NCBI GenBank assembly: GCA_944369075.1
Contig: CALVXK010000005.1
Coordinates: 1 to 64,000, forward strand
Direction of reading: 5' to 3'
DNA: 64,000 nt
Origin: an uncultured Bacilli bacterium
Lineage (GTDB): Bacteria; Bacillota_I; Bacilli_A; RFN20; CAG-826
The position numbers and the translations under genes were made by a program. This document shows, piece after piece, positions 1-54,802 of this stretch. Within the stretch, counting starts at the first letter, position 1, and each line of letters starts with the position of its first letter. The notes below the pieces were generated by a model. The model was given only the letters and a program-made list of their open reading frames with translations. It did not search any database and had not been told where the DNA came from.

Positions 1-174
1 GTTGAATTTATTAGAAATTTTAATGTTACTGAAAACTACGATGGTACTTTTATAAACACTGCAACTTATAGTGCAACATATAAAAAGATCAAAGAACTGC
101 TCGGATTATCTAAACTTGGAAATGTATATTTGAAAAACAAAGATATACAAAATTTTCTCAATATTGAATTTTAG
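1..174 (+). CDS. C-terminal fragment of an unidentified protein (cut by window edge)
   Basis: Frame 1 is open from the first base to a TAG at 172-174, giving 57 residues ending in FLNIEF. The 5' part lies outside the window, so neither start nor function can be judged. The fragment is hydrophilic, with a lysine-rich helix-like stretch (ATYKKIKELLGL). It converges with the next gene on the minus strand. A real coding end is likely because the frame stays open while the other frames contain stops, but this is weak evidence in 57 codons. Confidence 0.5.
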   Translation, partial: VEFIRNFNVTENYDGTFINTATYSATYKKIKELLGLSKLGNVYLKNKDIQNFLNIEF

Positions 175-220
175 AGCACCTTATTTTAGGAGTAAAACTC
201 CAAAGTCAGGTATAAAAATA

Positions 221-772
221 TTAAAATACCCCTTCAATTGATATATTATATTTCCTAGTATCAAAAGTTTCAAAAACATCATTAAACATTTCTATTTCTT
301 CTTTATCTAATTCTTCAAAAGGAAATATAATTTTAAAATTAAATTTAAAAATGTTCTCCATTTTTAAATTTAAAGCTTTAAACATTAATATTTCCTCTTC
401 TTTTGCAATTAACATTCTTTCATTTAAGATATTCCCTACATAAACTAAAAACTTTAATAAAACATCCTTAAATTTATTAATATTTGTTAAATAAAACATT
501 AAATCATTTCTATTTATACTCGTTAAAATAGTTAAATGAATATTATCGTTTTCATCTTTACTTTTTAATAAAGCTTTTACTTTAAAAGAATCATTTGTTT
601 CTTTATTAATTAATTTGTTATAAGTTTTTAATATAGAATCTTCCTCTTTATTAAAAACTTTAACAAATATATAGGTATAAACAAGTTTACTAGTGAATGG
701 AAGGTCAATAAAAAGAAAAGGTAATGTATTATTTTTAATTAGTTGATATAAAATCTCTTTTAATTCATTCAT
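221..772 (-). CDS. Hypothetical protein, 183 aa
   Basis: I do not recognise this protein. It is 183 residues, rich in Asn, Lys, Phe and Ile, with alternating hydrophobic and charged stretches and no clear signal peptide or membrane span. No Shine-Dalgarno precedes the ATG at 772; instead a TAAAAT hexamer (779-784) sits six bases upstream, as in several genes here that look leaderless. It runs divergently from the membrane protein at 883 and ends close to the partial gene at 1-174. Function unknown. Confidence 0.6.
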   Translation of the reverse strand: MNELKEILYQLIKNNTLPFLFIDLPFTSKLVYTYIFVKVFNKEEDSILKTYNKLINKETNDSFKVKALLKSKDENDNIHLTILTSINRNDLMFYLTNINKFKDVLLKFLVYVGNILNERMLIAKEEEILMFKALNLKMENIFKFNFKIIFPFEELDKEEIEMFNDVFETFDTRKYNISIEGVF

Positions 773-882
773 ATATTCATTTTAATGTTAAATAAAATAA
801 ATTTTATTTAACTAATTATATAATAGAAATTTATAATATAAATATATAAATTATTATTTAATTAATAGAAGGATATATAAAT

Positions 883-1854
883 ATGTTTGCTAATAATATT
901 AAAACTATTTCTACTTTATTAATATCGCTATTAGAAATATCTAATACTTCATTTTTATATTATTTTCTTTCATATATTTATCTATTTATGATAGGAAGCA
1001 TGATTGGTTATATTTTAGAAGTATTATTTAGAAGATTTGTTTCAATGAAAAGATGGATTAATCCAGGATTTTTAAAAGGACCTTATTTACCTTTATATGG
1101 TTTTGGGACATGTATATTATATTTTTTAAGTGATTTAGGAATTAGATATATCTCTTCTTTATCTTCCTTACCTTCTTATTATTCATTTTTTATTAATTTA
1201 AGTAATATAGAAATTAATGGGAACCTTAATTTCTATATTACTAGTTTAATAATTATATTAATTATAGGAATATCAATGACTTTAATAGAATTAATTGCTG
1301 GAATTATATTTATTAAAGGATTACATATTAAACTATGGGATTATTCATCACTTAAAGGTAATTATAAAGGTATAATCGCTCCATTATTTTCATTTATTTG
1401 GATGATGATAGGAGCTTTATATTTTTTCTTTATTCATCCTCTTATTTATGAAATGATTAATATTTTTAATAATCATTTATTAGGTTTAACCTTTATTTTA
1501 GGCTTATTTAGCGCAACATTTTTAATCGACTTTTATAATTCAATGAAATTATCTTTATCTTTAAATAAAGAAGCAAAAGCAAAAAATATTCTTATTGATT
1601 TTGAAAAATTAAAGTTAAATGCTAAAAAATATAAACTTAAAGCAAAACGAATTGAAGAAATTAAAAAGATTTTAGATGAAGCTAGTCAACCTTTAAAAGA
1701 AAAAATAACTAAGTTTCATAATGAAGCAAGAAGACATTTATATATAAATAATGAAATTCCTACTAAAAGCGCTAAAGAAATTGATGAAACTCCAAGAATG
1801 AAAAAAGAAAGATTAGAAAAAGAAAATAAGAATGAAAATATAAATTCTAAATAA
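883..1854 (+). CDS. CmpB-like putative ABC-transporter permease-family membrane protein (PF06541)
   Basis: This 323-residue protein has several membrane spans in its first 230 residues. Its conserved core, roughly residues 40-80, reads GYILEVLFRRF, then NPGFLKGPYLPLYGFG, which is the typical signature of the ABC_trans_CmpB family (PF06541, former DUF1113). Biochemical function is not established for this family. The last 90 residues are highly charged and helical (KLKLNAKKYKLKAKRIEEIKK), probably a cytoplasmic coiled coil. The start at 883 is supported by AGAAGGA about eight bases upstream. It appears monocistronic; the following 500 bases hold only a degraded gene on the other strand. Confidence 0.75.
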   Translation: MFANNIKTISTLLISLLEISNTSFLYYFLSYIYLFMIGSMIGYILEVLFRRFVSMKRWINPGFLKGPYLPLYGFGTCILYFLSDLGIRYISSLSSLPSYYSFFINLSNIEINGNLNFYITSLIIILIIGISMTLIELIAGIIFIKGLHIKLWDYSSLKGNYKGIIAPLFSFIWMMIGALYFFFIHPLIYEMINIFNNHLLGLTFILGLFSATFLIDFYNSMKLSLSLNKEAKAKNILIDFEKLKLNAKKYKLKAKRIEEIKKILDEASQPLKEKITKFHNEARRHLYINNEIPTKSAKEIDETPRMKKERLEKENKNENINSK

Positions 1855-1901
1855 AATGATTTTTATAAATTTTATTTCAATCACATTTTATGAAGGAATT
1901 G

Positions 1902-2287
1902 TTAAAAATTTGGTAAATAATCTAATAAAAAATCAACTATATTTATAAATAAGATATTATTTTCATCATACCTTTTAATAAAATATGGATCATTAACGAC
2001 TATCACTTTAGCAATATTATCTTTTAATAAAATAAATGGCTTGATTTCTCTATTCAATACATCATTATTATTTATTGAATTACATACCTGAATATAAATT
2101 CTTTTATCATTTTTTCTAGCAAAGAAATCAACTTCATAAGTTTCCTAACACTTTCTTTATTTATATAAGAATTTATTTCTTTTAAATAAGATTCCTTAGG
2201 AATATTTCATTTACTCGAAAAATAAATTGAAGCATTTAAATTTAAATCACTTCTATTTCTTAAACTAACAATTTTAAATTCATTCAT
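1902..2287 (-). pseudogene. Decayed AAA-family ATPase remnant (DUF4143-type C-terminus)
   Basis: Reading the minus strand from an ATG at 2287 gives MNEFKIVSLRNRSDLN..ASIYFSSK, then an in-frame TGA, then NIPKESYLKEINSYINKES. After a frameshift the reading continues as YEVDFFARKNDKRIYIQVC, followed by LNREIKPF and an end at a TAA (1902-1904). The VDFF..IYIQVC..REIKP pattern is the usual end of ATP-binding proteins carrying DUF4143. The P-loop region is missing and at least one stop and one frameshift are present, so this is a relic. The TGA stands where a Trp codon would fit (TGG to TGA mutation). It fills most of the gap between neighbouring genes. Confidence 0.7.
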
Positions 2288-2358
2288 ATAAAATTAATAT
2301 TACCTAAGTTAAATCAAAATATTAACTAATTTTAATTAATTTATAGTATATTAATGTT

Positions 2359-3444
2359 ATGAAAGATAGATATGATTTAATTGGTAAATCTTCGATCAAT
2401 AAACATAACATCTCTTTAGATTTATATTTACTTAACTCTAAAGAGTATTATTTGGTAATAAATAATAACTTAGAAAAAGATTTTTCTAAGTTAAGTAAAT
2501 ATAAAATTAAAGATAATGAAGACTTAATTAAGCAAATAACATCTAATTTTAATTTTGAAGTAAGACCTTGTTCGATATTACTTATATTTAATAAAGCATT
2601 ACTACAAATGTATGAAGTAAAAAGAAAGATGTATTTTAAAAAGATAACATTAAGATCTTTAAAATATATGAAATCTAAGAGAAACAAAGATTTAAATAAT
2701 ATTAATCCTTATGACGAATCTTGTTTTATTAATTTACAGCAACTTTTAGAGGTAATGAAATTACTCATTAATCACTTAATTAAAAATAGATTAATTACTA
2801 CTTTTAAACTAATTGAACTTGCTTCTTTATATAATGAAGCTAACTTTAAATATGAAAATGCTAAATCTCCAAGTTCGACTAATATTAATGTTGAAACAAA
2901 TGATATATTAATTTATGGACATATATTTAACATTAAAAACTTCATTAATTTAAAGTTAGTTATTGCAAGTATTAATCTAATAACATTTAAAGGTGAAATA
3001 ATTAAAGAAAAAGTTACTTTATATAAAGATTTAAATACTAACTACTACTTTATTTTAGATAAAGATTATGATGATATTTTAATTAAAGGTAGAGCGTTAT
3101 GTTATCAAATTAATTTAGTAACATATCTTTCAAGTTTAAATAAAATTGATGATAAAAATATTAAAGTAAGAAGTATTAAAGATCTATTACCTTTTGAATT
3201 TTTATCTTTACTAGGTTATGATACTTCTTCTTTAAGATTTTTATCTAGTAAACAAAGAGAAACAATATTATTAACGGCAATTAAAAATAATATATTTAAT
3301 AAGCATTCTTTAACAATCTATTTAAATCAATGTTTAAATGAAAAACGTGATATTTATTCTAAAGGTAAGATTGTAAATCGTTTAACTAGTGATTTAAATT
3401 TTATTAAAAATATAGATGAAAGTAATCTAGAACCTATTCTATAA
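2359..3444 (+). CDS. Hypothetical protein, 361 aa, upstream of cysteine desulfidase
   Basis: I do not recognise the family. The protein is soluble-looking, 361 residues, Lys/Asn/Leu-rich, with a C-terminal stretch (around residues 275-355) that looks like a conserved domain: FEFLSLLGYD, SSKQRETILLTAI, then KGKIVNRLTSDLNFI. No Shine-Dalgarno is present; TATATT lies six bases before the ATG, so translation may start on a leaderless mRNA. The stop overlaps a possible TATAAT for the next gene, which begins eight bases later, so the two genes may be co-transcribed. No function can be proposed from the sequence. Confidence 0.7.
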   Translation: MKDRYDLIGKSSINKHNISLDLYLLNSKEYYLVINNNLEKDFSKLSKYKIKDNEDLIKQITSNFNFEVRPCSILLIFNKALLQMYEVKRKMYFKKITLRSLKYMKSKRNKDLNNINPYDESCFINLQQLLEVMKLLINHLIKNRLITTFKLIELASLYNEANFKYENAKSPSSTNINVETNDILIYGHIFNIKNFINLKLVIASINLITFKGEIIKEKVTLYKDLNTNYYFILDKDYDDILIKGRALCYQINLVTYLSSLNKIDDKNIKVRSIKDLLPFEFLSLLGYDTSSLRFLSSKQRETILLTAIKNNIFNKHSLTIYLNQCLNEKRDIYSKGKIVNRLTSDLNFIKNIDESNLEPIL

Positions 3445-3452
3445 TTAAATCT

Positions 3453-4724
3453 ATGATAGATGAAAAATTAAATAAAACATATGAAGATATTTTAATTAAT
3501 GAATTAATTGTAGCAAGAGGCTGCACTGAACCTATATCTTTAGCTCTTTCTAGTGCTAAACTAATAGAAATTAAAAAAGAAATTCCTCTTCATATTGAAG
3601 CCTATATTTCAGGTAATATTATAAAAAATGTACAAGGAGTAATAATTCCTAGAACTAATAATCATAAAGGTGTTATTCCTTCTTTACTTGTAGGACTTCT
3701 TATTGGTGATACTTCTTATAATTTAGATATTTTATCTAAGTTTAACGAAGATAAAATATCTAAATTAGATGAATTAGTATCGAAAAATATTATTAATGTT
3801 AATTTGGCTAAATCATGTAAGAATCTTTATATTAAGTTAGAAGCAACATATTTAGATAATGATAAAGTAACGATAATTATCGAGGATTTTCATAATAACT
3901 TTACATTAATTAAACATAATGAAGATATAATTTATTCTAAACATGATTTAATTAAGAAAAAGAAAGAAGAATATAATTTACTTAACGTAAATGATATCTT
4001 TGAATTTGCAAATAGTAATGATTTAACAAGAATTAAACCTTATTTAGAAAGACAAGTTGAATATAATTTTGAGATTGCTAAAGAAGGTATTAAAAATAAA
4101 TATGGTTCAATGATTGGCAAAATAATTCTCGATCATTCAAATGAAAACGTAAAAGAAATTGCTAAAGCCTATACTAGTGCTGCAAGTGATGCAAGAATGG
4201 CTGGATGTAACCTTCCTGTTGTAATAATTTCAGGTAGTGGAAACCAAGGGCTAACTACTTCTGTACCTTTAATTGTTTATGCAAAACACTTTAATATTTC
4301 TCATGAAAAGTTACTTAGAAGTTTAGTTTTAAGTGATTTAATCGCTTTAGAAGAAAAGAAAGATATTGGTAGATTAAGTGCTTTTTGTGGAGCAATAAGT
4401 GCAGGAATTGCTTCTTCTAGTGCTATTGCTTATATGCTTGAAAATAATTTAGAAGCTATAAAACATACAATTATTAATGGCTTAGCTTTAGCTAGTGGAA
4501 TAATTTGTGACGGGGCAAAAGCTTCTTGTGCTGGAAAAATTGCTTTAGCTTTAGAATCCGGTTTACTTGGTTATTACATGTATAAAAATAATTCTAATAT
4601 TCATGCAGGAGATGGAATTATTAAAGAAACCTGTGATGAAACAATTAAATCAGTTGGAAGACTTGCCAAAAAAGGAATGAAACAAACAGATAAAGAAATC
4701 TTAAATATAATGATTGATAAATAA
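3453..4724 (+). CDS. cyuA: L-cysteine desulfidase (UPF0597 / CyuA family)
   Basis: This 423-residue protein matches the UPF0597 family, [4Fe-4S] enzymes that break L-cysteine down to pyruvate, ammonia and sulfide. Recognisable blocks are VARGCTEPISLALSSAKL near the N-terminus, NLPVVIISGSGNQGLT near residue 270, FCGAISAGIASSSAIAYML near 315, and the Cys-containing ICDGAKASCAGKIALALESG near 365. Conserved cysteines in these blocks are the expected cluster ligands. Length is normal for the family. There is no Shine-Dalgarno; TATAAT, overlapping the stop of the upstream gene, lies eight bases before the ATG. The role would be sulfide release from cysteine or cysteine detoxification. Confidence 0.88.
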   Translation: MIDEKLNKTYEDILINELIVARGCTEPISLALSSAKLIEIKKEIPLHIEAYISGNIIKNVQGVIIPRTNNHKGVIPSLLVGLLIGDTSYNLDILSKFNEDKISKLDELVSKNIINVNLAKSCKNLYIKLEATYLDNDKVTIIIEDFHNNFTLIKHNEDIIYSKHDLIKKKKEEYNLLNVNDIFEFANSNDLTRIKPYLERQVEYNFEIAKEGIKNKYGSMIGKIILDHSNENVKEIAKAYTSAASDARMAGCNLPVVIISGSGNQGLTTSVPLIVYAKHFNISHEKLLRSLVLSDLIALEEKKDIGRLSAFCGAISAGIASSSAIAYMLENNLEAIKHTIINGLALASGIICDGAKASCAGKIALALESGLLGYYMYKNNSNIHAGDGIIKETCDETIKSVGRLAKKGMKQTDKEILNIMIDK

Positions 4725-44540: not shown

Positions 44541-44906
44541 CTACTTAATATATTCTTTAATTTTTTCTAATGTTTCATCACTTATAACGTGCTCGATCTT
44601 ACAAGCATCTTCTTCAGCGACTTTTTCATTAACACCAATGGATACTAAAAATTTAGTTAAAGTTAAATGACGGTCAAATATTGCTTTAGCATAAGTTTCA
44701 CCTTCTTTAGTAAGAGCTAAAGATTCGTCGTCATTTACAATAATATATCCTTTATTTTTTAAGTTTTGGATAGCTCTAGAAACACTGGCTCTTGAAAAAT
44801 TCATAGCGTTAGAAATATCAATAGCATGTACATTTTCTTTATGTTCTTTAAGTCTAAGAATAGTTTCAAGATACATCTCTTCACTTTCATTATAAAATTT
44901 TGCCAT
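44541..44906 (-). CDS. DtxR/MntR-family metal-dependent regulator
   Basis: The 121-residue protein has the winged helix (SEEMYLETILRLKEHKENVH, SNAMNFSRASVSRAIQNLKN, GYIIVNDDESLALTKEG) and the short metal-binding/dimer domain (RHLTLTKFLVSIGVNEKVAE, ACKIEHVISDETLEKI). It lacks the SH3 domain, as MntR does. Metal ligands are likely the Cys/Glu/His in ACKIEHVIS. Adjacent to feo and its operators, it most likely represses iron uptake when Fe(II) is abundant. AAGGAG precedes the ATG. Confidence 0.9.
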   Translation of the reverse strand: MAKFYNESEEMYLETILRLKEHKENVHAIDISNAMNFSRASVSRAIQNLKNKGYIIVNDDESLALTKEGETYAKAIFDRHLTLTKFLVSIGVNEKVAEEDACKIEHVISDETLEKIKEYIK

Positions 44907-44995
44907 ACAATACTCCTTATTTAGCGTATTTGTTAGATATAAATAACTAGATTATTATATCGATATAAATTTATTTTTAAAAGGATAATACTTCT

Positions 44996-45796
44996 TTATT
45001 TTAGACGATATTGATTTAAGTTTTCTTTATCATCTTTACTTACTCTAAAAGAATCTTTTATTTTAGAGATAGTTTTATTAGTTATAAATTTATTAAATCT
45101 TCTTTCTTTTAATAAATTTATAACTAATTCTTTATCATAGATATAAAAATAAGAAAGTAACCAAGCTACCATCATTCCTAAATAGTAAGATGAAGGAAAA
45201 GAAGTCGAAATAGTTTGAAATACATCGTCAATTATATATGAGATAATATAGTTTTTATTATTTAAAAATAATTCTTTAAGTTTAGGAAAAAGCAAATTTA
45301 ACCCAGTTCTAACATAGATATCGAAGTTACTTATTTCATTTGATTTGCCTAAATATGAAATGAAATAAGGTATTAGATCATAAAGATATTTATTAGTATC
45401 TATTTTATTTATCTTTTTAAGTTTAACACTATCACTAATTGCCCAAGAATCAGCATTTTTAAGCATTTTAGTTAAATAAAACTTAATTTTTTCTATATCA
45501 CTAAAATAAGAACAAACAACTTTAGAGTAAATTTGTTTTTCTTCAAATATAGTTAAAGGAGAATTATCTAAGAAATAATACATATTTTCTTCATTATTTT
45601 TTGAATCAAGTAAAATTTCTTTACTAATATCATTAATTTTAGAAAAATAATAACCTAAAACTTCTAACTTGGTATTTAAAATATTTCTTTGATAAATAAT
45701 ACGATTTTCATCGCCTTTAAAACTTAGTAAATATGATTCATAATTTCTTTTATAGTCTTTATCTTTTTTAATATCTAAATATGATTTAATTTCCAT
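44996..45796 (-). CDS. AlkD-like DNA alkylation repair protein in the Wadjet operon
   Basis: The 266-residue product matches the AlkD/AlkC HEAT-repeat family: YQRNILNTKLEVLGYY near 36, SWAISDSV near 120, NFDIYVRTGLNLLFPKL near 160, and YYLGMMVAWLLSYFYIYDKE near 205, FITNKTISKIKDSFRVSKDD near 235. The W-x-x-x-D in SWAISD and Trp in VAWLLS correspond by position to the Trp109/Asp113/Trp187 set of Bacillus cereus AlkD, so base excision of alkylated bases is possible. The ATG at 45796 lies two bases after jetD's TGA (a GTG at 45805 would overlap), so it belongs to the Wadjet operon. This linkage is not part of the standard JetABCD set. Confidence 0.78.
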   Translation of the reverse strand: MEIKSYLDIKKDKDYKRNYESYLLSFKGDENRIIYQRNILNTKLEVLGYYFSKINDISKEILLDSKNNEENMYYFLDNSPLTIFEEKQIYSKVVCSYFSDIEKIKFYLTKMLKNADSWAISDSVKLKKINKIDTNKYLYDLIPYFISYLGKSNEISNFDIYVRTGLNLLFPKLKELFLNNKNYIISYIIDDVFQTISTSFPSSYYLGMMVAWLLSYFYIYDKELVINLLKERRFNKFITNKTISKIKDSFRVSKDDKENLNQYRLK

Positions 45797-45798
45797 AA

Positions 45799-47067
45799 TC
45801 ACCACTCATCCATAATAACTTCTTGTTCTAATTTTTTATTTGTTTCAAGCATAGCTAATATTAATTTTGAAAACACTTGATATTCTTTTTCACTTTTTAT
45901 TTTTGATAAAAGCTTTAAATCTTTTTCATTTAATTCTTTCGAATATTTTAGATACTTTCTAAATATTTCTTCATTCATTAAATAATGAATAAACTTAATA
46001 CCAGTTTTAGTTTCTAAATTTACAAAAATTTCTAGACCAAAAGGATCTAAGTCTCCAAAATGATAAAATTCTTTAACCTTATTTGATTTTTTAATTTTTC
46101 TTAATAACACATTAATTTGATTAGAATGAAATCCGCCTAAAAATATTAATATAAAGTCATTAAATTCTTTTAAAGATGATAAATAGTTAAAAGTTGTTAA
46201 ATTTTCAATCGTTAGAAGCTTATATTTACTTACTTTTGTTATTTTTAATGTTTCAATTTGGTTTTTTAATAAAGAAATAGGGGAAGATAGTTTATCTAAA
46301 TTAATTTTGATTTTATCAATTTTTAAAGTTAATCCGTTTTTAATTAAAACATACTTTGAATTTTTATAAATGTTGAAATATTCATAAAATTCTTCTTCAT
46401 TAACTTCTTTAATTCCTTCATCATTAAAATTAATAAAAATACGGATAAAGAAAGAAATATTATTTTCTAAAAATTTAGAATCATTAAATATTTTTTGAGA
46501 TAAAGTTCTTAAAGGTAAAAAATTATCTTTATTTTTTAAATCATATAAAAATTCGAATAAATTAGAAGTTAATTTTATGTTTTTAACATTCATTTCTTTA
46601 TTTAATAAAAGCATTGTTAATGATTCATTGTTCTTAAGCTTTGAAGCAATAACATCTAAATATTTCTTAACAAAGCTAGTTTTATAGTTAGAATCTTTAA
46701 GAAAGTTAGCAAAATCTTCTTTAAAAGAAAATATTTCTTTATATTTAAAATTATAAGGATGTTCTAAAAGAATGTCGTTAAGTTTAGAAACATTCAAAAT
46801 GATCTTATCAAAAAACGATAAGTTAACGTTTCTTAGTTTAAACTTTAAACTAATAAAATTTTTATCGAGAAGTTCTTTTAATATAATTTCTAAATAATCA
46901 CGATAATTATCAACAAAATTACCATGTTTATTTATTTTATTAGCTGTTAAAGAAATTTCTTTTGTTAAATCCAAAGAATTTAACTTAATAATTTCATTAT
47001 CATAAAGAGAAAGTAAAGAATCTAAAATATAATTTTTAACGTATTTTAAAGTTTCTTTTTCATTCAT
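45799..47067 (-). CDS. jetD: Wadjet component JetD (Toprim nuclease)
   Basis: The 422-residue protein carries a C-terminal Toprim domain with the metal-binding DxD in YHFGDLDPFGLEIF at about 335-348, typical of JetD, the nuclease subunit that cuts plasmid DNA after loop extrusion. The long N-terminal part is helical and unremarkable. It begins four bases after jetC's stop and ends in TGA two bases before the AlkD-like ATG. Length and gene order agree with type I Wadjet. Confidence 0.88.
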   Translation of the reverse strand: MNEKETLKYVKNYILDSLLSLYDNEIIKLNSLDLTKEISLTANKINKHGNFVDNYRDYLEIILKELLDKNFISLKFKLRNVNLSFFDKIILNVSKLNDILLEHPYNFKYKEIFSFKEDFANFLKDSNYKTSFVKKYLDVIASKLKNNESLTMLLLNKEMNVKNIKLTSNLFEFLYDLKNKDNFLPLRTLSQKIFNDSKFLENNISFFIRIFINFNDEGIKEVNEEEFYEYFNIYKNSKYVLIKNGLTLKIDKIKINLDKLSSPISLLKNQIETLKITKVSKYKLLTIENLTTFNYLSSLKEFNDFILIFLGGFHSNQINVLLRKIKKSNKVKEFYHFGDLDPFGLEIFVNLETKTGIKFIHYLMNEEIFRKYLKYSKELNEKDLKLLSKIKSEKEYQVFSKLILAMLETNKKLEQEVIMDEW

Positions 47068-47070
47068 AGC

Positions 47071-50000
47071 TTAAAAATTAAATTCGTTTAAATATTGAAC
47101 AGCAATATATTTATCTTTTACTAAATTTAAGGCAATAACATCATCAACTTCGTCTAAAAGAGAAGTAACATTTGATGGTGGAACGACTATAAAAATATTT
47201 AAATCTAGCTCTTTATAAAATTTAAGTAATGTTTCAATTCTACCTGGATCCATGTTATTAAATGCTTCATCAAAAAGTATTGGACATAAAGAATCGTCCT
47301 TTCTAATAATTGAATTTAAGAAACATGCAGCAATAATAATATAGAATGGGTTTTGTATTTCACCACCACTTCTTTCTCTACTTACCTTAGAAAAATAAGT
47401 AATTGAAGGAGAAATAGCACTCGAAATCTTAATATCATAAGACATAAAATTACGATAATCGCAATATTCATTAATTTTTTTCAAAGCATCATTATTAGGC
47501 GATTCTTGAGAAATTAAATCAAAAACTTTTTCTAATGTATCTCTATTTTTTGTAGATAAAGAATTATAGAAAACTGAGAAGTTTCCTTCATAATTTTGAT
47601 TACTTTCAACAATTTCATAAATGTTTTGGAAAGTTTCATCTTTAGAATTAGCTTTTGAAACTTCAATACGATAAATTTCTTTCTTTAAACCAAAGATTAA
47701 TGAAGAAAGTTTACGGTTAATTTCACTTATATCTCTTTTTTTATTATCAATTTTCGTTGCAAGTGAATTAATATATTTCTCTTTATAAAGTTCGTAGGCT
47801 TCTTCTCTAGCCTCTTCACATTTAACTTTGAATTCATTTAAATCATTATTTTCATAATTTCTAAGTAATTCAAGGTATGGAGAAAAATTACTAACATCAG
47901 GATTTTCTTCGTAATTAAATTCCTTGTTGTACTCTTTCATTCCGCTTTCAATTTCATATCGAGAATTTCTAATGTTTTGATCTAATTTGCTTCTATCTAA
48001 ATCTTCTTTTAGCATCGAATCAATTTTTGCTTTATATAAGGAATCTTCAAAATATTCTTTAAGTTTTGACTTATCTTGAGATATTAAATTATTTAACTCT
48101 TCTATTATCGTTCCTGATTTTCCTAAATCAGAATTAATTTTTGCTAAATTAGTTTCAATATTATCAATTTCTTTCTCAGCTTCAGATTTAATTCTTCTTT
48201 TTTCGTCAATATCAGTTGATAGAGTCGATAAATCACTCTCTTTTAATTTATTAATTTCTTTTTTAGTTGATTCAATATCGTTTACTAAATTATTTTCTAA
48301 AGTAAAATAATCTTCATCGAAACTAAAGACAAACTTCGAATTCAATGTTCTTAAAATATTCCTTGAAAAATCGAAATTATTTCTTTCAACTTTTAACTCA
48401 CTTAAATCTTTACTTAAATCAGAAATTTCTTCTTTAACTTCCTTTAGCCTATCTAATATTGCTTTTTTACCAATATAATAACGAGTATAAAGTCGAGGAT
48501 TAACTTTATTTAAACGACCTTTTTTATATATAAAAGCATCACTTGTTGTTTCGTTTTTTGAAAAATCAAATTCTTTGTCGTTTAAAAATACATCTCCTAA
48601 AAGATAATCAACATATTTTCTCGCATAAGAATTACTTGTAGAAATTACTGAAGCTAAAGAAGCAGGGTCTTTTTGCTTATCTTTTATAGCTGAAATATTA
48701 ACTAAACTAACGCTAGGATAATTTTCTCGATTATCTCTTAAAATTTCATAGCATTCTTTAAAATAAAGTGGTGGAACAATCAAATCGAAACGACGATTAT
48801 TTAAGTTTCCTTCAATAGCATCACGATAACTTTCATCGTTAATCTCGATTAATTCGCATAAAGGCAAACATGTAAATCCGCTTTTTGATGATAATTTTTC
48901 ATTTAATAAATCTCTAAAGGAAGAAATTTCATAAGAATAAGTCATTTTTTCATTATTTAATCTATTAGCTTCCTTTTTTAGCAAATCGAGTTCATTTTCT
49001 TTGCCTTTAATTTCTTCATCTAAATCATTATATTCCTTATCTAAATAAGAGTAATTTTCTACTAATTTCGATTTGATTTCGCTTAAAGCACTACTAACAC
49101 CTTTAAAAGAAAAACTCATATAAGAAGATTTTAAAAGTGAATAATCGATTAAAGTTTTATCGAGTAAAGTATCAACTTTATCAAAAGATGAAGTTAAATC
49201 TAAATAGAAAGAATTAAAATTACTTAAAATGTTTCTAATTTTATTAAGTTCTACTTCTTTATTTTCATTCTTCTTCTCAAGATCTTTAATTTCTTTATAT
49301 GTTTCACTATTTTCAAGTTTTAAAATAGTTTCAGCAAGTTCTTTAACTTTATTACTTATATCAAGTTTTTTAAAATTTTCAGATTTTTTTGAAGCATTTA
49401 GTTCATTAAACTTCTCATTTTCTTTATTTAATTTATCTAAATTTAAATTATATTCTTTTAATGTATCAACAATATCTAAATCTTTTATTTTTTCCTCATT
49501 CTCTTTATATAATTGATAGTTATTTTCAATATCTTTTAAAGCTAAAATCTTTTTGTTACAAGCTTCAACTTTTAACTTAAGTTCTTGATAAGTTCTAGCT
49601 TTATTTTTCAAGGAATCAAGATCTATTTTTTCTTCTTCCATTAAAAAAGAATAAATAAAATCATCAATATTATCGATTGGTTCAAATCCCATTGATTTAT
49701 TAATTAAATTTGAATAATTCTTTTTTAAATAAAAATCATTAGTCACTATTTTATCGTAAATTTCTTGCTTATTTCCTTTAATTTCGTCTACTCTAAAATC
49801 ATGTTCTTCATAGACCTCTTTAAGTTCATCAAAGTTTAGTATTTTTCCACTATCTAAAGAATAAGCTCCTTCAATTAATGGCGCATTTTTTACGCGATAG
49901 AATGTTTCTTTTAAGTTATTTAAAGAAGTTAGTTCAAAAACTACACCTAAAACACTTGTTTTTAATGTTTTATCGTTGACTATTTCGATTGCAATATGAC

Positions 50001-50271
50001 TTAAAATATCTCCTTCTCTTAAATTAGAGTTTTCTTCACTTCCGATTTTTCCTCTAATATAAGATTTAACACTTCTTGAAGATTTTTTATTTGCTGCACT
50101 ATTAAATGAATAATCATTTCCTCCTAAAAGAAGATATTCAAGTGCATCTAAAAGAGAAGTCTTACCAACACCATTTTGTCCAGTAATAACGACGATATTA
50201 TTTTTAAAAACAATCTCTTGATCAACAAATGATTGCCAGTTAATGAGTCTTAATTTACTAATTCGTTTCAT
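47071..50271 (-). CDS. jetC: Wadjet component JetC (SMC-like ATPase)
   Basis: A 1066-residue SMC/MukB-like ATPase. Walker A is ITGQNGVGKTSLLDALEYL near 29-47, the signature is ERSGGEIQNPFY near 965, and Walker B is CPILFDEAFNNMD near 1000. Between them lie two long coiled coils around a hinge-like region (about 480-590). JetC dimers extrude DNA loops. Its start overlaps jetB by 14 bases and jetD follows by three bases. All catalytic motifs are intact, so the system is likely functional. Confidence 0.93.
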   Translation of the reverse strand: MKRISKLRLINWQSFVDQEIVFKNNIVVITGQNGVGKTSLLDALEYLLLGGNDYSFNSAANKKSSRSVKSYIRGKIGSEENSNLREGDILSHIAIEIVNDKTLKTSVLGVVFELTSLNNLKETFYRVKNAPLIEGAYSLDSGKILNFDELKEVYEEHDFRVDEIKGNKQEIYDKIVTNDFYLKKNYSNLINKSMGFEPIDNIDDFIYSFLMEEEKIDLDSLKNKARTYQELKLKVEACNKKILALKDIENNYQLYKENEEKIKDLDIVDTLKEYNLNLDKLNKENEKFNELNASKKSENFKKLDISNKVKELAETILKLENSETYKEIKDLEKKNENKEVELNKIRNILSNFNSFYLDLTSSFDKVDTLLDKTLIDYSLLKSSYMSFSFKGVSSALSEIKSKLVENYSYLDKEYNDLDEEIKGKENELDLLKKEANRLNNEKMTYSYEISSFRDLLNEKLSSKSGFTCLPLCELIEINDESYRDAIEGNLNNRRFDLIVPPLYFKECYEILRDNRENYPSVSLVNISAIKDKQKDPASLASVISTSNSYARKYVDYLLGDVFLNDKEFDFSKNETTSDAFIYKKGRLNKVNPRLYTRYYIGKKAILDRLKEVKEEISDLSKDLSELKVERNNFDFSRNILRTLNSKFVFSFDEDYFTLENNLVNDIESTKKEINKLKESDLSTLSTDIDEKRRIKSEAEKEIDNIETNLAKINSDLGKSGTIIEELNNLISQDKSKLKEYFEDSLYKAKIDSMLKEDLDRSKLDQNIRNSRYEIESGMKEYNKEFNYEENPDVSNFSPYLELLRNYENNDLNEFKVKCEEAREEAYELYKEKYINSLATKIDNKKRDISEINRKLSSLIFGLKKEIYRIEVSKANSKDETFQNIYEIVESNQNYEGNFSVFYNSLSTKNRDTLEKVFDLISQESPNNDALKKINEYCDYRNFMSYDIKISSAISPSITYFSKVSRERSGGEIQNPFYIIIAACFLNSIIRKDDSLCPILFDEAFNNMDPGRIETLLKFYKELDLNIFIVVPPSNVTSLLDEVDDVIALNLVKDKYIAVQYLNEFNF

Positions 50272-50872
50272 CGTTAAACTCCTTAAATTCCTTAAAAGTT
50301 GCTATTAATTCGTTGATATCTTTAATATCAACTAAGTAATTAATAGTTTGATATAATTCAATTTTTATTTCGCCATTTTCATCTATTTTATAATTTAAAC
50401 ATTTATATTCTTCTAAAGAATCAAGGCTATCTCTAATTTGAGATAACTTTAATTCATTACGATATATTTGATAATTTCTAATAAAATCGTTAATTTCATT
50501 AATAGAAACAACAATATTATTTGAAGTTATATCTTTAGCATTTTTAATTTTATCTAAATATAAATATTTTAAAATTAACAAAATAACAGTATCTCTTTTA
50601 TTTAATTTAACATTCGATGTTTCGTTAATATTATTTACAGCAATAATTCCATTATCTTTATCAATTACTAATTTTTTATTAATAATTGATAAATATGCAT
50701 CAATCATTGAAGAATTTTCTCTAGAAATAGCAAAGTAATAGTCATCATAATCTTCTTTTACATCGCGAATTAAATAAGATTCACTTAATAATCTAAGAGT
50801 AATTCTTGAAAAATTCTTTTTATCTGTTGGATTAAGTTCGTTATATTTATTAATAAAATCAGTTAGTTCCAT
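50258..50872 (-). CDS. jetB: Wadjet component JetB (kleisin-side subunit)
   Basis: The 204-residue protein is a winged-helix (MukE-like, DUF4194) subunit: FSRITLRLLSESYLIRDVKE near 20, a middle LNKRDTVILLILKYLYLDKI near 97, and IRDSLDSLEEYKCLNYKID near 145 fit JetB. It bridges JetA and JetC. Both ends overlap its neighbours by 14 bases. Its identity depends partly on position between JetA and JetC. Confidence 0.83.
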   Translation of the reverse strand: MELTDFINKYNELNPTDKKNFSRITLRLLSESYLIRDVKEDYDDYYFAISRENSSMIDAYLSIINKKLVIDKDNGIIAVNNINETSNVKLNKRDTVILLILKYLYLDKIKNAKDITSNNIVVSINEINDFIRNYQIYRNELKLSQIRDSLDSLEEYKCLNYKIDENGEIKIELYQTINYLVDIKDINELIATFKEFKEFNDETN

Positions 50873-52364
50873 AAAGATTACTTCTTACCTCCTCTTTTCT
50901 AGAAATATAATAATTCGATAAATCGTTTAAATACTTATATGAATAAACATCCTTTAAAAATGAAAGATTATATCTACTTCCTTCGTCTTTTTCATATAAG
51001 AATAAATAGAAAGTTTTAACGATTAGTTCATTCTTTTTACTTACTTCTTCTATTTCTTTTAGTTCACTATTTATTAAGTTAAGTAAAGATATTCCTTCTG
51101 GGTATTTAGAAAGTATATAGTCAGCAAAAATATAAATATTTTTCTTAGAATATTTGGCTTGTTCTTTATATAAAGCATTATCTTGTTCACTAGTTAAACT
51201 TGCAAGTTTACTAATTTCTTTCTTAGAAATAACAAGTTTTTTAAATTCACGGTTATAAACTCTCTTTTTTGGTACATAAAGAGAGGAAGAATTTATAATA
51301 TTTACTTTAAAGTAATTAGATTTAAATGAATATATTTTATCTTCATCTTCTTTTTCTAATCCTTTAAGTGCTAAAAGAAGTAAATCTTTATAAGCTTTAC
51401 CATTATTTTCTAAGAAATTAATTCTGGCAATAGCTCTACTTAAACATTCTTCATCTTTTCGGTATATTCTTGCAATTTGAGGCAAAAAAGAATCAAGATA
51501 TTCATCATTAAATCGATCAATATAAGCTTTAATTTTATCGATTGTTTTATTATTTAAATCAATAGAAAAACCTTCATTTTTAGATGTAATAATATTAAAC
51601 GAAACTTGTTTTATTGCTTCTTCATCATTTATAAAATCATCAAGTTTTCTTCTTATTGAGGCAATTAAATTCTTTGCTCTATTTCCTTCTTCTAAAGGTT
51701 TGATTTTCTTAGTAAAAATACTTTGATATGTATCAAAAATTAAGGAATACATTTCCTTAATTGATAAATTTTCACTTGCTAATGTTTCATTTAAAAATCT
51801 AATTAAATCTTTACTTGTCTCATTTAATTGGTTCTTAAAATTGATAAAATTATCTTCAATTTGCTTAAAATCGCTAAAAGATTCGAATGAATTTAAATTT
51901 TGTAATGATTCATTAACTGATTTTAATGGTGTAATTAAATCAATGTCTTCATTATCGTTAGTTTCAATTATTCTTTTAAAAGCATCGTATAAATAGGATG
52001 TATATATTCCTTCTTCAACTAATTCGATAAAGTTTTTATAGTAAGAAACTAACCAATTGGTTCTTAAAAATAAATGATATTTTTTTAAAGCGATATCGTG
52101 AAAGGAAAGATTATTTTGCTCACTTATTTCAACTTCATTTCCATCTTCTAAATCGTATAATTCTTCTTTATTTATTTTATGATAATCTTTAAGTTCATCT
52201 TCAATAAAAATTATTAAAGATTGCCTTTCAACTTCATCATTTTTACTTAAATATTCGTGTATTCTTGATAAAAGAAAAAAGTTAGTTTTGTAATCTTTCA
52301 TTACAAATACTTTGAATAAATTGTTATTAACCTTTGAAAATAAATTGACGTTATTTTTATCCAT
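50859..52364 (-). CDS. jetA: Wadjet component JetA (kleisin)
   Basis: The 501-residue helical protein fits JetA in length and place, the first gene of the type I Wadjet operon. Motifs such as LFLRTNWLVSYYKN, YDAFKRIIETND, and the central helical DLIRFLNETLASENLSIKEM agree with the MukF-like kleisin. Its stop TGA lies inside jetB's start region (14-base overlap). A TATAGA lies seven bases before the ATG and no Shine-Dalgarno is seen. Confidence 0.83.
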   Translation of the reverse strand: MDKNNVNLFSKVNNNLFKVFVMKDYKTNFFLLSRIHEYLSKNDEVERQSLIIFIEDELKDYHKINKEELYDLEDGNEVEISEQNNLSFHDIALKKYHLFLRTNWLVSYYKNFIELVEEGIYTSYLYDAFKRIIETNDNEDIDLITPLKSVNESLQNLNSFESFSDFKQIEDNFINFKNQLNETSKDLIRFLNETLASENLSIKEMYSLIFDTYQSIFTKKIKPLEEGNRAKNLIASIRRKLDDFINDEEAIKQVSFNIITSKNEGFSIDLNNKTIDKIKAYIDRFNDEYLDSFLPQIARIYRKDEECLSRAIARINFLENNGKAYKDLLLLALKGLEKEDEDKIYSFKSNYFKVNIINSSSLYVPKKRVYNREFKKLVISKKEISKLASLTSEQDNALYKEQAKYSKKNIYIFADYILSKYPEGISLLNLINSELKEIEEVSKKNELIVKTFYLFLYEKDEGSRYNLSFLKDVYSYKYLNDLSNYYISRKEEVRSNLYGTN

Positions 52365-52465
52365 AACTAATTCTATATTTTATCATAATTATTCTTATAA
52401 GAATATAAATGATATAGGGGAAATGTAATATTTTATGGATATCCATTAAGGTAATAATTTTTAAA

Positions 52466-52670
52466 TTACTTAATATTATCTTTCATAATGATTTTACTTT
52501 TAAAATACTTTTCTTGAAACTTAACTGCTTTCTTAATTTCTTCTTTGAAATAGAAATTGTTTTGATATGAGTTTCCCAAAAGCATCAAGAATATAAGTTT
52601 TTCTATCAGCAACTAATTAACAATCTCTAGATGTTCTTAAGTTCAAACCTCTAACAGTAAATCTTCTAAT
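52466..52670 (-). pseudogene. Unidentified gene relic
   Basis: The minus strand reads RFTVRGLNLRTSRDC, stop, LVADRKTYILDAFGKLISK and, in another frame, NNFYFKEEIKKAVKFQEKYF then a TAA at 52466. Consistent coding-like runs broken by stops and frameshifts suggest a decayed gene; the family is not recognised. Confidence 0.35.
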
Positions 52671-52673
52671 AAT

Positions 52674-52702
52674 AAAAAAAGCCCGAGAACTTCGGACTAC
52701 TA
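52674..52702 (-). terminator. Terminator of the tRNA-Cys/tRNA-Pro unit
   Basis: Minus strand AGTCCGA-agttc-TCGGGCT followed by seven T. Confidence 0.82.
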
Positions 52703-52750
52703 TATATATTTACTCGATACAATTACTTATATCGAAGTTGTAATTAAATC

Positions 52751-52827
52751 TGGTCGGGACGACAGGATTTGAACCTGCGGCCTTCTGCTCCCAAAGCAGA
52801 CGCGATACCAAGCTACGCTACGTCCCG
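52751..52827 (-). tRNA. tRNA-Pro (TGG)
   Basis: Acceptor CGGGACG/CGTCCCG; anticodon arm TCTGC-TTTGGGA-GCAGA carries TGG; CCA encoded. Confidence 0.96.
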
Positions 52828-52892
52828 ATATTTTTAAAGCGCTCAAATATTATATATAAGAGCGATATAAAAAGCAAACACATTTTTATAAA

Positions 52893-52967
52893 TGGAGCTT
52901 CCTAGCGGATTCGAACCACTGGTCACTGAGTTGCAGTCAGTTGCCTTACCAACTTGGCTAAGGAAGC
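52893..52967 (-). tRNA. tRNA-Cys (GCA)
   Basis: Acceptor GCTTCCT/AGGAAGC with T at the discriminator, as expected for Cys; anticodon arm ACTGA-CTGCAAC-TCAGT carries GCA; CCA encoded. Confidence 0.95.
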
Positions 52968-53043
52968 ATACCTTCATTTGTTTGCCTATGAATAATATCA
53001 TAAAGAAGAAGGTAATTTCAACTTAAATGTTATCTTAAATGAA

Positions 53044-53074
53044 TCTACTCTACCTTTAACTAAGGTAGAGTAGA
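53044..53074. terminator. Strong hairpin after potD
   Basis: TCTACTCTACCTT-taact-AAGGTAGAGTAGA, a 13-bp stem just downstream of potD. The T-run is weak in the potD direction, so it may act as a 3' end stabiliser or terminator. Confidence 0.6.
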
Positions 53075-53083
53075 TATTAAGTA

Positions 53084-54802
53084 TTATTTAGAAGAATTTT
53101 CTCTCATCTTCTTTCTATTTTTAAGTTTAATTACACGAATTAATTTGTAAGATCCTAAATAGCCAATAAATAAGACTAAGAATACGATTAAGGTTATAGT
53201 AATCCAAAGAGGTAATGGATTAACTTTAACATCTTCCCACATTTGAACAATCTTATCATTTTGTGGACCATAATCATTCATAACATAAAGGCTATCGATA
53301 GTTGATGCTTCAGGATATTGAGCTTTTAAAAGCCTTCCTTCAAAAGAATCAAAATCAGTACGAATAAGTATTTTAACTTCACCGTTTTCATCTTTTTTAA
53401 AGGTAAAGGTTCTGTCATCTACTTCTTCATCACCTAAAATTTCACCACTTACATAAGAAAGATCTACACTAAATTCTTCAGTAAAATTAAAGAATGGAGT
53501 TACATCATATAAATCATATGATTCGTAATCACTATCTTCATCCCCATCACTTAAATCATAAGAATAGAGCATATAAGCAAGCATAGCTTTAGCTTCTTGT
53601 TCATCATAGTTTAAATTTGTTCCACTAGTAATAAATGAAGTATAACCATTATAGTAGACATTACGAATAGAATTTTCAGGCATATTTAAATAATCTAAAA
53701 ATTCTAAAGTATATTTATAAGTATCGCTTTCATAATATCCTGGAATGTTTGATTTAGGTGTAGCCCATATATCCGTCCATACGTTTGCCCCAAGTTTAGG
53801 CGCACTATAATATAAGTCTACTGGATCTTCACGAGGAATTGTCCAATCATCATCAGCATAATAACCTCTATTAATTGAGTTAACGGCATCTCCAGACCAA
53901 GCTACGTTAACACCAATTTTTTGAGTAACGATATCATTTTTACCACTATCAACTTCAAATCCAAAGATATTACCTTTTAATTCAATGAGTTTATTTTTAA
54001 TTAATTCAATAGTTTCATCCGTTGAATCATTAAATTTTCCATTTCTTTTATCGTAACTTGGTTCATTTAAATATAGATCTTTAAAAACTTCAAAGTTACC
54101 AATAGCATAAGTATCTCTCATTGAATCTTTAATAGAAATTGTTCCATTTAAAAGTGGATTCCATAAAAATGAATAACCATCATTTCCTTCAAATGTTTCG
54201 ACAATTTTACTAATTCTTTCATCACGAGATAAATCTTTCCATTCTGGATCATTATCAAATGCTTCACTATTAAAATTTAAAATATATTCAGGATTATATA
54301 AAATACCTAAAGTTCCCCACATGTATCCGGCACTATAATCATCAAGTTCGAAAGTGCCTTCATCATTATTTACTTTAAGTAAATTTAATTTTCCAGGATT
54401 ACTTGTATCATCATTTGATAAAAATTTTGAAACGAAATTATCATAAAATGGAATATCATTATGATCAATTCTATGAAGATAACCTTCATTTGCAAGTCTT
54501 TGAACCATGTAATCTGAAGCACAGATTAAATCATAAGAGGTTTTTCCAGTTTGAATGGTATTATACATCGTTTCATTTGTATCATAAGTATCATAAATAA
54601 TTGAAACTCTTTTACCATCTCTTTCATAAATATAATCTTCAAACTCACCAAGTAAATCTTCATCAATATAGTCTTCAGCATTTAAAACGCGAACATAAGT
54701 TACACCACTATCATTAGGAGGTACACTTTCTCCCCCACAAGAAGCTAAAATGGTAGCTAGAAGAGGAAATAAAGCGATCAAAGAAAATTTTGTATTTTTC
54801 AT
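53084..54802 (-). CDS. potD: Spermidine/putrescine-binding lipoprotein PotD with C-terminal membrane span
   Basis: A lipobox (LLATILASC, Cys at 22) is followed by a periplasmic-binding-protein fold with PotD features (YVRVLNAEDYIDEDLLGEFE, SYDLICASDYMVQRLANEGYL, AGYMWGTLGILYNPE, INVAWSGDAV-like). PotD is normally about 350 residues; this has 572, with an extra region of about 130 residues and a membrane span near the C-terminus (WITITLIVFLVLFIGYLGSY) ending in basic residues. It would thus be anchored at both ends. GAGGAGGAA precedes the ATG. Confidence 0.88.
   Translation of the reverse strand: MKNTKFSLIALFPLLATILASCGGESVPPNDSGVTYVRVLNAEDYIDEDLLGEFEDYIYERDGKRVSIIYDTYDTNETMYNTIQTGKTSYDLICASDYMVQRLANEGYLHRIDHNDIPFYDNFVSKFLSNDDTSNPGKLNLLKVNNDEGTFELDDYSAGYMWGTLGILYNPEYILNFNSEAFDNDPEWKDLSRDERISKIVETFEGNDGYSFLWNPLLNGTISIKDSMRDTYAIGNFEVFKDLYLNEPSYDKRNGKFNDSTDETIELIKNKLIELKGNIFGFEVDSGKNDIVTQKIGVNVAWSGDAVNSINRGYYADDDWTIPREDPVDLYYSAPKLGANVWTDIWATPKSNIPGYYESDTYKYTLEFLDYLNMPENSIRNVYYNGYTSFITSGTNLNYDEQEAKAMLAYMLYSYDLSDGDEDSDYESYDLYDVTPFFNFTEEFSVDLSYVSGEILGDEEVDDRTFTFKKDENGEVKILIRTDFDSFEGRLLKAQYPEASTIDSLYVMNDYGPQNDKIVQMWEDVKVNPLPLWITITLIVFLVLFIGYLGSYKLIRVIKLKNRKKMRENSSK

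Follow-up and report, generated by a model that had tools for sequence, protein, structure and literature searches.

Does a gene for an AlkD-type protein that stands directly behind the genes of a Wadjet operon belong to that system and, if it does, what would its product do there? Wadjet systems act against plasmids in bacteria, with small circular plasmids as their targets. In Wadjet, JetABC is the sensor and JetD the effector, and all four proteins are needed (PMC10586767). The window analyzed in this work comprises 64,000 nucleotides from an uncultured Bacilli bacterium (assembly GCA_944369075.1, contig CALVXK010000005.1, positions 1 to 64,000), and a previous sequence-only reading had proposed that it carries a complete Wadjet operon whose fifth gene encodes an AlkD-like protein. 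None of the papers searched joins Wadjet and AlkD. An antiviral DNA glycosylase has been described, the uracil-DNA-glycosylase-type enzyme Brig1, which excises glucosylated hmC from T4 DNA (PMC11078745), and AlkD2 lacks both the B-helix and glycosylase activity (PMC4433238). From the analyses presented here we conclude that the fifth Wadjet gene is real and is restricted to one lineage, and that AlkD is not a general part of Wadjet but probably a dedicated partner with a narrow distribution. In what follows, G000 is the genome of this window, the other G numbers are genomes of relatives, and the L numbers are the loci compared.

Results

Organization of the operon

An intact type I Wadjet operon with the order jetA-jetB-jetC-jetD-alkD runs on the minus strand of the window from 52364 to 44996 (Table 1). 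The proposal of a complete operon with an AlkD-type fifth gene was thus borne out by five open reading frames, by PADLOC and Pfam matches, and by the match of the last product to an AlkD profile. The close packing that had been described, with 14-base overlaps or gaps of a few bases, was also recovered: jetA overlaps jetB by 14 bases and jetB overlaps jetC by 14, a gap of 3 bases separates jetC from jetD, and the ATG of the alkD-like gene (position 45796; stop codon at 44996-44998) starts 2 bases past the TGA of jetD, as had been claimed. A GTG located 9 bases upstream is a possible alternative start for alkD (open reading frame 44996-45805), which would overlap jetD.

Table 1. Features of the Wadjet operon and of its edges, in window coordinates
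Feature	Position	Strand	Evidence or remark
jetA, kleisin subunit, 501 aa	50859..52364	-	Open reading frame; iterative profile to other JetAs; 35% identity to G198 JetA
jetB, KITE subunit, 204 aa	50258..50872	-	Pfam DUF4194 5.7e-18; PADLOC JetB1 5e-30
jetC, SMC ATPase, 1066 aa	47071..50271	-	PADLOC JetC1 2e-198; AAA_29 P-loop and SbcC_Walker_B domains
jetD, CAP-Toprim nuclease, 422 aa	45799..47067	-	PADLOC JetD1 9e-63; Pfam JetD_C 5e-21; Toprim residues
Fifth gene, alkD: HEAT-repeat protein of the AlkD family resembling a DNA glycosylase, 266 aa	44996..45796	-	Residues, profile, AlphaFold2 fold
Hairpin resembling a terminator, behind tRNA-Pro, at the upstream edge of the operon	52680..52698	-	Scan
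tRNA-Pro	52751-52827		
mntR-like regulator outside the system, forming the conserved downstream end of the slot	44541..44906	-	Also adjoins in G106 and G198

JetA has no direct match in Pfam, PADLOC or NCBIfam because it is too diverged; its identity follows from its position together with the evidence listed in Table 1, and the JetA of G198 matches PADLOC JetA1 at 3e-16. The motifs that the sequence-only reading took to be intact in JetC and JetD are conserved. The AAA_29 and SbcC_Walker_B matches of JetC are accompanied by a P-loop, an SGGE signature and a DEA motif that are invariant in the alignment with the JetCs of G106 and G198, and the Toprim residues E288, D339 and D341 of JetD are invariant among the ten JetDs compared. 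In gene order and in its intact ATPase and Toprim residues the operon resembles the type I Wadjet systems (JetABCD, MksBEFG) of Bacillus, E. coli, Pseudomonas PA14 and Corynebacterium, from which it differs by the fifth, AlkD-type gene, given that the described systems have four (PMC10586767).

The chromosomal slot that holds the operon (44541-53084) extends from a tRNA-Pro/tRNA-Cys pair, on the side of a PotD-like gene, to mntR-feoB. Its content is variable: Wadjet and alkD are found here, and an ABC transporter, a glycosyltransferase, an aldo/keto reductase or other genes in relatives (L121-L127). At the other end of the window, positions 1-4000 have a G+C content of about 0.20, markedly below that of the rest (0.22-0.32).

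Family, active site and predicted fold of the fifth protein

The AlkD-like protein of the window has no direct match in Pfam, NCBIfam or PADLOC. In the case of PF08713 (DNA_alkylation), neither this protein nor that of G106 reaches the gathering score, and the linked AlkD of G198 is below threshold at 17.2 bits; the family is matched by free-standing homologues from the same bacterial family, among them that of G137 at 27.3 bits, above threshold. A single-sequence phmmer search of the PDB with the window protein gave no match, and a profile built from the three linked AlkDs alone gave only chance matches. With a 20-sequence family profile, Bacillus cereus AlkD was found at E = 6e-16, well ahead of every unrelated match. 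In the profile alignment, W118, D122, R163 and W212 of the window protein pair with W109, D113, R148 and W187 of B. cereus AlkD, which are active-site residues. The W-x-x-x-D motif and the distal tryptophan noticed earlier (W118, D122 and W212) are therefore kept, along with R163.

An AlphaFold2 model of the fifth protein, built from the AlkD family alignment, has a HEAT-like repeat fold (pLDDT 94.3, pTM 0.90). When this model was compared with the PDB using Foldseek, the ten best folds were all AlkD or 2b6c, an alkylation-repair protein of E. faecalis, with modest E-values (about 0.01-0.13) and TM scores of 0.49-0.71. The N-terminal helices 15-24, 30-40 and 51-67 line up with the AlkD helices A, B and C without deletion. 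AlkD2 of Streptococcus mutans belongs to the same superfamily and lacks the B-helix (PMC4433238); since this helix is present in the model (residues 30-40), identity with AlkD2 was rejected.

With B. cereus AlkD, an alkylpurine DNA glycosylase (PDB 3bvs, 3jx7), the window protein shares the HEAT-like fold, the four active-site equivalents and the B-helix; it differs in sequence (about 10% identity in the structural alignment), in its extra insertions and in its location in a defence operon. It also carries Asn41 at the position of Lys29, with Arg37 and Lys43 nearby, for which reason substrate binding may differ in detail from that of the B. cereus enzyme; most free-standing relatives have Asn at this position as well. 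The insertions common to the three linked AlkDs are absent from the free-standing AlkDs.

Between G000 and G106 the dN/dS of alkD is 0.21, compared with 0.13-0.21 for the jet genes and 0.04-0.07 for flanking housekeeping genes, a value which indicates that alkD is under purifying selection and is a working gene. We rejected its fast evolution as a sign of a defence role, given that the free-standing AlkDs in the genus evolve equally fast (0.13-0.26). Judged from its residues and predicted fold, the fifth protein is probably an active alkylpurine-type DNA glycosylase.

With the same fold, the protein could also serve the SMC complex as a HEAT-repeat subunit that binds DNA, comparable to the HAWK proteins of condensin and cohesin, with the glycosylase activity secondary or lost. 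The HAWKs of SMC complexes are themselves HEAT proteins (PMC10586767), some relatives of AlkD have no glycosylase activity (AlkD2, AlkF and AlkG; PMC4433238), and the linked AlkDs might dock through the insertions found only in their clade. Nonetheless, W118, D122, R163 and W212 are all kept, which is unexpected for a purely structural role, and JetABC already has a KITE protein, JetB; we consider a HAWK-like function quite improbable.

Distribution of the linkage

About 90 distinct JetC/JetD loci were compared after duplicates had been removed, and for 83 of these the sequence downstream covers 900 bases or more. Only three of the roughly 90 loci, those of G000, G106 and G198, have alkD. Within the bacterial family, 17 of the 196 genomes have a JetD of this type, and alkD follows jetD only in G000 and G106. 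The JetD loci at class level gave no further alkD-linked case, and the JetD search at phylum level returned only loci already known from the class. A JetC scan of GTDB genome contigs yielded 80 loci; AlkD is encoded on two of these contigs, the ones from G106 and G198 themselves. Scans of viral contigs gave no relative, and no copy of the linked type was found in plasmids (three distant AlkDs, <28% identity) or in phages (two weak matches). Since nearly all related jetABCD operons are devoid of alkD, AlkD is excluded as a general component of Wadjet. Close linkage holds in three genomes, where alkD starts 2 (G000), 2 (G106) and 6 bases (G198) after the preceding jet gene, and it is absent from nearly all of the loci compared.

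The three linked cases come from one genus and one chromosomal site, upstream of mntR-feoB, and for this reason the adjacency may be plain vertical inheritance. That alkD is a functionally meaningless chance neighbour in the variable slot between tRNA-Pro/tRNA-Cys and mntR-feoB would agree with the unrelated genes in the slot of relatives and with the absence of alkD from most Wadjet loci; it is scarcely credible, however, in view of the purifying selection on alkD and because Wadjet and alkD recur, equally tightly spaced, in three genomes so diverged that their JetCs are 38-78% identical.

The genes behind jetD in relatives (L058-L071) include those for a GmrSD-like nuclease (L060), PDC-S49 (L061), PDC-S56 (L062), a PDC-S41/NERD-helicase fragment (L063), SbcD together with an SbcC/LmuB-like protein of 1030 aa (L065), and a Nudix protein (L070, L071). 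PDC-S41, PDC-S49 and PDC-S56 are candidate defence proteins; elsewhere, unrelated genes are found near jetD. One Wadjet locus, L073 in G026, is decayed, with jetA split in two frames, jetC missing and jetD truncated.

Phylogeny of linked and free-standing AlkDs

AlkD is found in 21 of the 26 genomes of the genus, with at most one intact copy in each and nearly always free-standing. G000, G106 and G198 have no AlkD besides the linked copy, and four near relatives in the genus (G085, G113, G119 and G190) have neither a detectable AlkD nor a JetD of this type. A single clade (SH-aLRT 100) unites the linked AlkDs, and it groups with AlkDs of other families and not with the free-standing AlkDs of the genus. 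To force the linked AlkDs together with the resident ones costs 22 log-likelihood units (AU p = 0.22), so that the tree speaks against a relocated resident AlkD, which the AU test does not reject. In the order and class samples, AlkDs of the linked clade score 371-491 bits and no other AlkD exceeds about 111; none of the linked clade was found away from jetABC. The strong "jetC" matches that appeared near free-standing alkD genes in several genomes proved spurious: at L077, the one that was tested, the iterated profile had pulled in a Clp-type AAA ATPase.

The JetCs of G000, G106 and G198 likewise form one clade (support 100), the internal branching of which matches that of the AlkD tree, with similar path lengths (0.27 and 1.84 for AlkD, 0.31 and 2.03 for JetC). 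G182 and G149, which make up its sister pair, have JetABCD and no AlkD. The matching branching of the two proteins and this alkD-less sister pair suggest that the operon acquired alkD a single time, with jetD lost in G198.

The sequence-only reading had held that the linkage would be accidental if related operons lacked the gene and AlkD sat elsewhere in most of them. To a large extent this is what was observed, given that nearly all related operons are without alkD and that most genomes of the genus have their one AlkD elsewhere; the linked AlkD, nonetheless, does not look like a moved resident gene. The other possibility raised at that time, that a neighbour gene had drifted into the operon, is weakened by the separate AlkD clade, by its co-divergence with JetC and by the retention of alkD where jetD is missing. 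The functions suggested in that reading, which were broader target recognition, repair of host DNA and detection of modified bases, are candidate roles.

It is a serious possibility, if short of even chances, that alkD is an ordinary base-excision repair gene that uses the jet promoter without any mechanistic link, in a genome that needs one AlkD. As the linked copy is the only AlkD of the three genomes, these may retain it for normal repair work, and the limit of one intact copy per genome in the genus, the intact catalytic residues, the many different genes that fill the place behind jetD in relatives and the AU result all agree with such a role. Less easily accommodated are the separate clade with its own insertions, the lack of linked-clade copies away from jetABC in the order and class samples, the persistence of alkD beside jetABC in G198 after the loss of jetD, and the near relatives that live without a detectable AlkD.

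An operon without jetD

In G198 (L120:836-6966, contig 77) the order is jetA-jetB-jetC, then alkD 6 bases later, followed by genes for an aldo/keto reductase, mntR and feoB. The operon has no jetD, alkD stands in its place, and the JetC motifs are intact. No JetD match was found in the G198 genome, a MAG that is about 70% complete and has this locus on one contig. The 300-aa gene after alkD was considered as a JetD substitute and was rejected, since it encodes the aldo/keto reductase. A jetABC set without jetD is reminiscent of the MksBEF condensins that lack MksG (JetD); however, the JetC of G198 groups with those of the JetD-bearing G000 and G106 and not with the JetD-less lineages, and its operon has alkD where jetD would be. 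This position of AlkD would also suit the HAWK-like subunit considered above. A further reading, which we regard as unlikely, is that AlkD is an alternative effector: the DNA captured by JetABC would pass to a subunit that excises bases or, as a HEAT-repeat protein, sculpts DNA. In G000 and G106 this subunit would act beside JetD, and in G198 alone, as part of a nuclease-less SMC-glycosylase system.

Discussion

The explanation that we prefer, and to which we give about even chances, is that alkD is a lineage-specific fifth Wadjet gene, and that its product, probably an active alkylpurine-type glycosylase, acts together with JetABC(D), its substrate being either the DNA that is captured or lesions that the extruder encounters. 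It is favoured because the linked AlkDs form one clade, diverge along with JetC, are encoded at tight gaps from the jet genes and are retained in the absence of jetD. According to this explanation, alkD would be translated from the same mRNA as the jet genes and AlkD would act with the JetABC loop extruder. JetABC would reel in and bend foreign circular DNA. AlkD, whose B. cereus counterpart bends the duplex on binding and flips no base, would excise alkylated or otherwise modified purines from the DNA so held; alternatively, it could clear lesions at which extrusion stalls. The abasic sites left behind would add damage to the double-strand cut made by JetD, and in G198 they would replace that cut. 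As a DNA glycosylase, AlkD would resemble Brig1, which defends against modified-base phages (PMC11078745), the difference being that Brig1 belongs to the uracil-DNA-glycosylase superfamily and is not tied to an SMC system.

If the coupling is true, the enzyme that works on captured DNA can be recruited or exchanged in Wadjet, and SMC defence gains a base-excising enzyme alongside the JetD nuclease. If alkD serves repair only, then repair genes too can settle behind jetD, at a place that in other relatives holds other defence genes. The jetD-less operon of G198 is the most interesting by-product of this work, and it makes the coupling of AlkD and JetABC directly testable.

JetABC without JetD is common in other lineages, namely in Acholeplasmatales and phytoplasmas. 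A JetC-type SMC protein is encoded in the Acholeplasmatales loci (L141-L178), usually with jetB and jetA, and in those of phytoplasmas (L180, L184-L186, L192, L193, L199 and L202), usually with jetB, and no JetD was found in either set. The JetCs of both groups make up a JetD-less clade in the JetC tree, apparently reflecting a condensin-like, MksBEF use.
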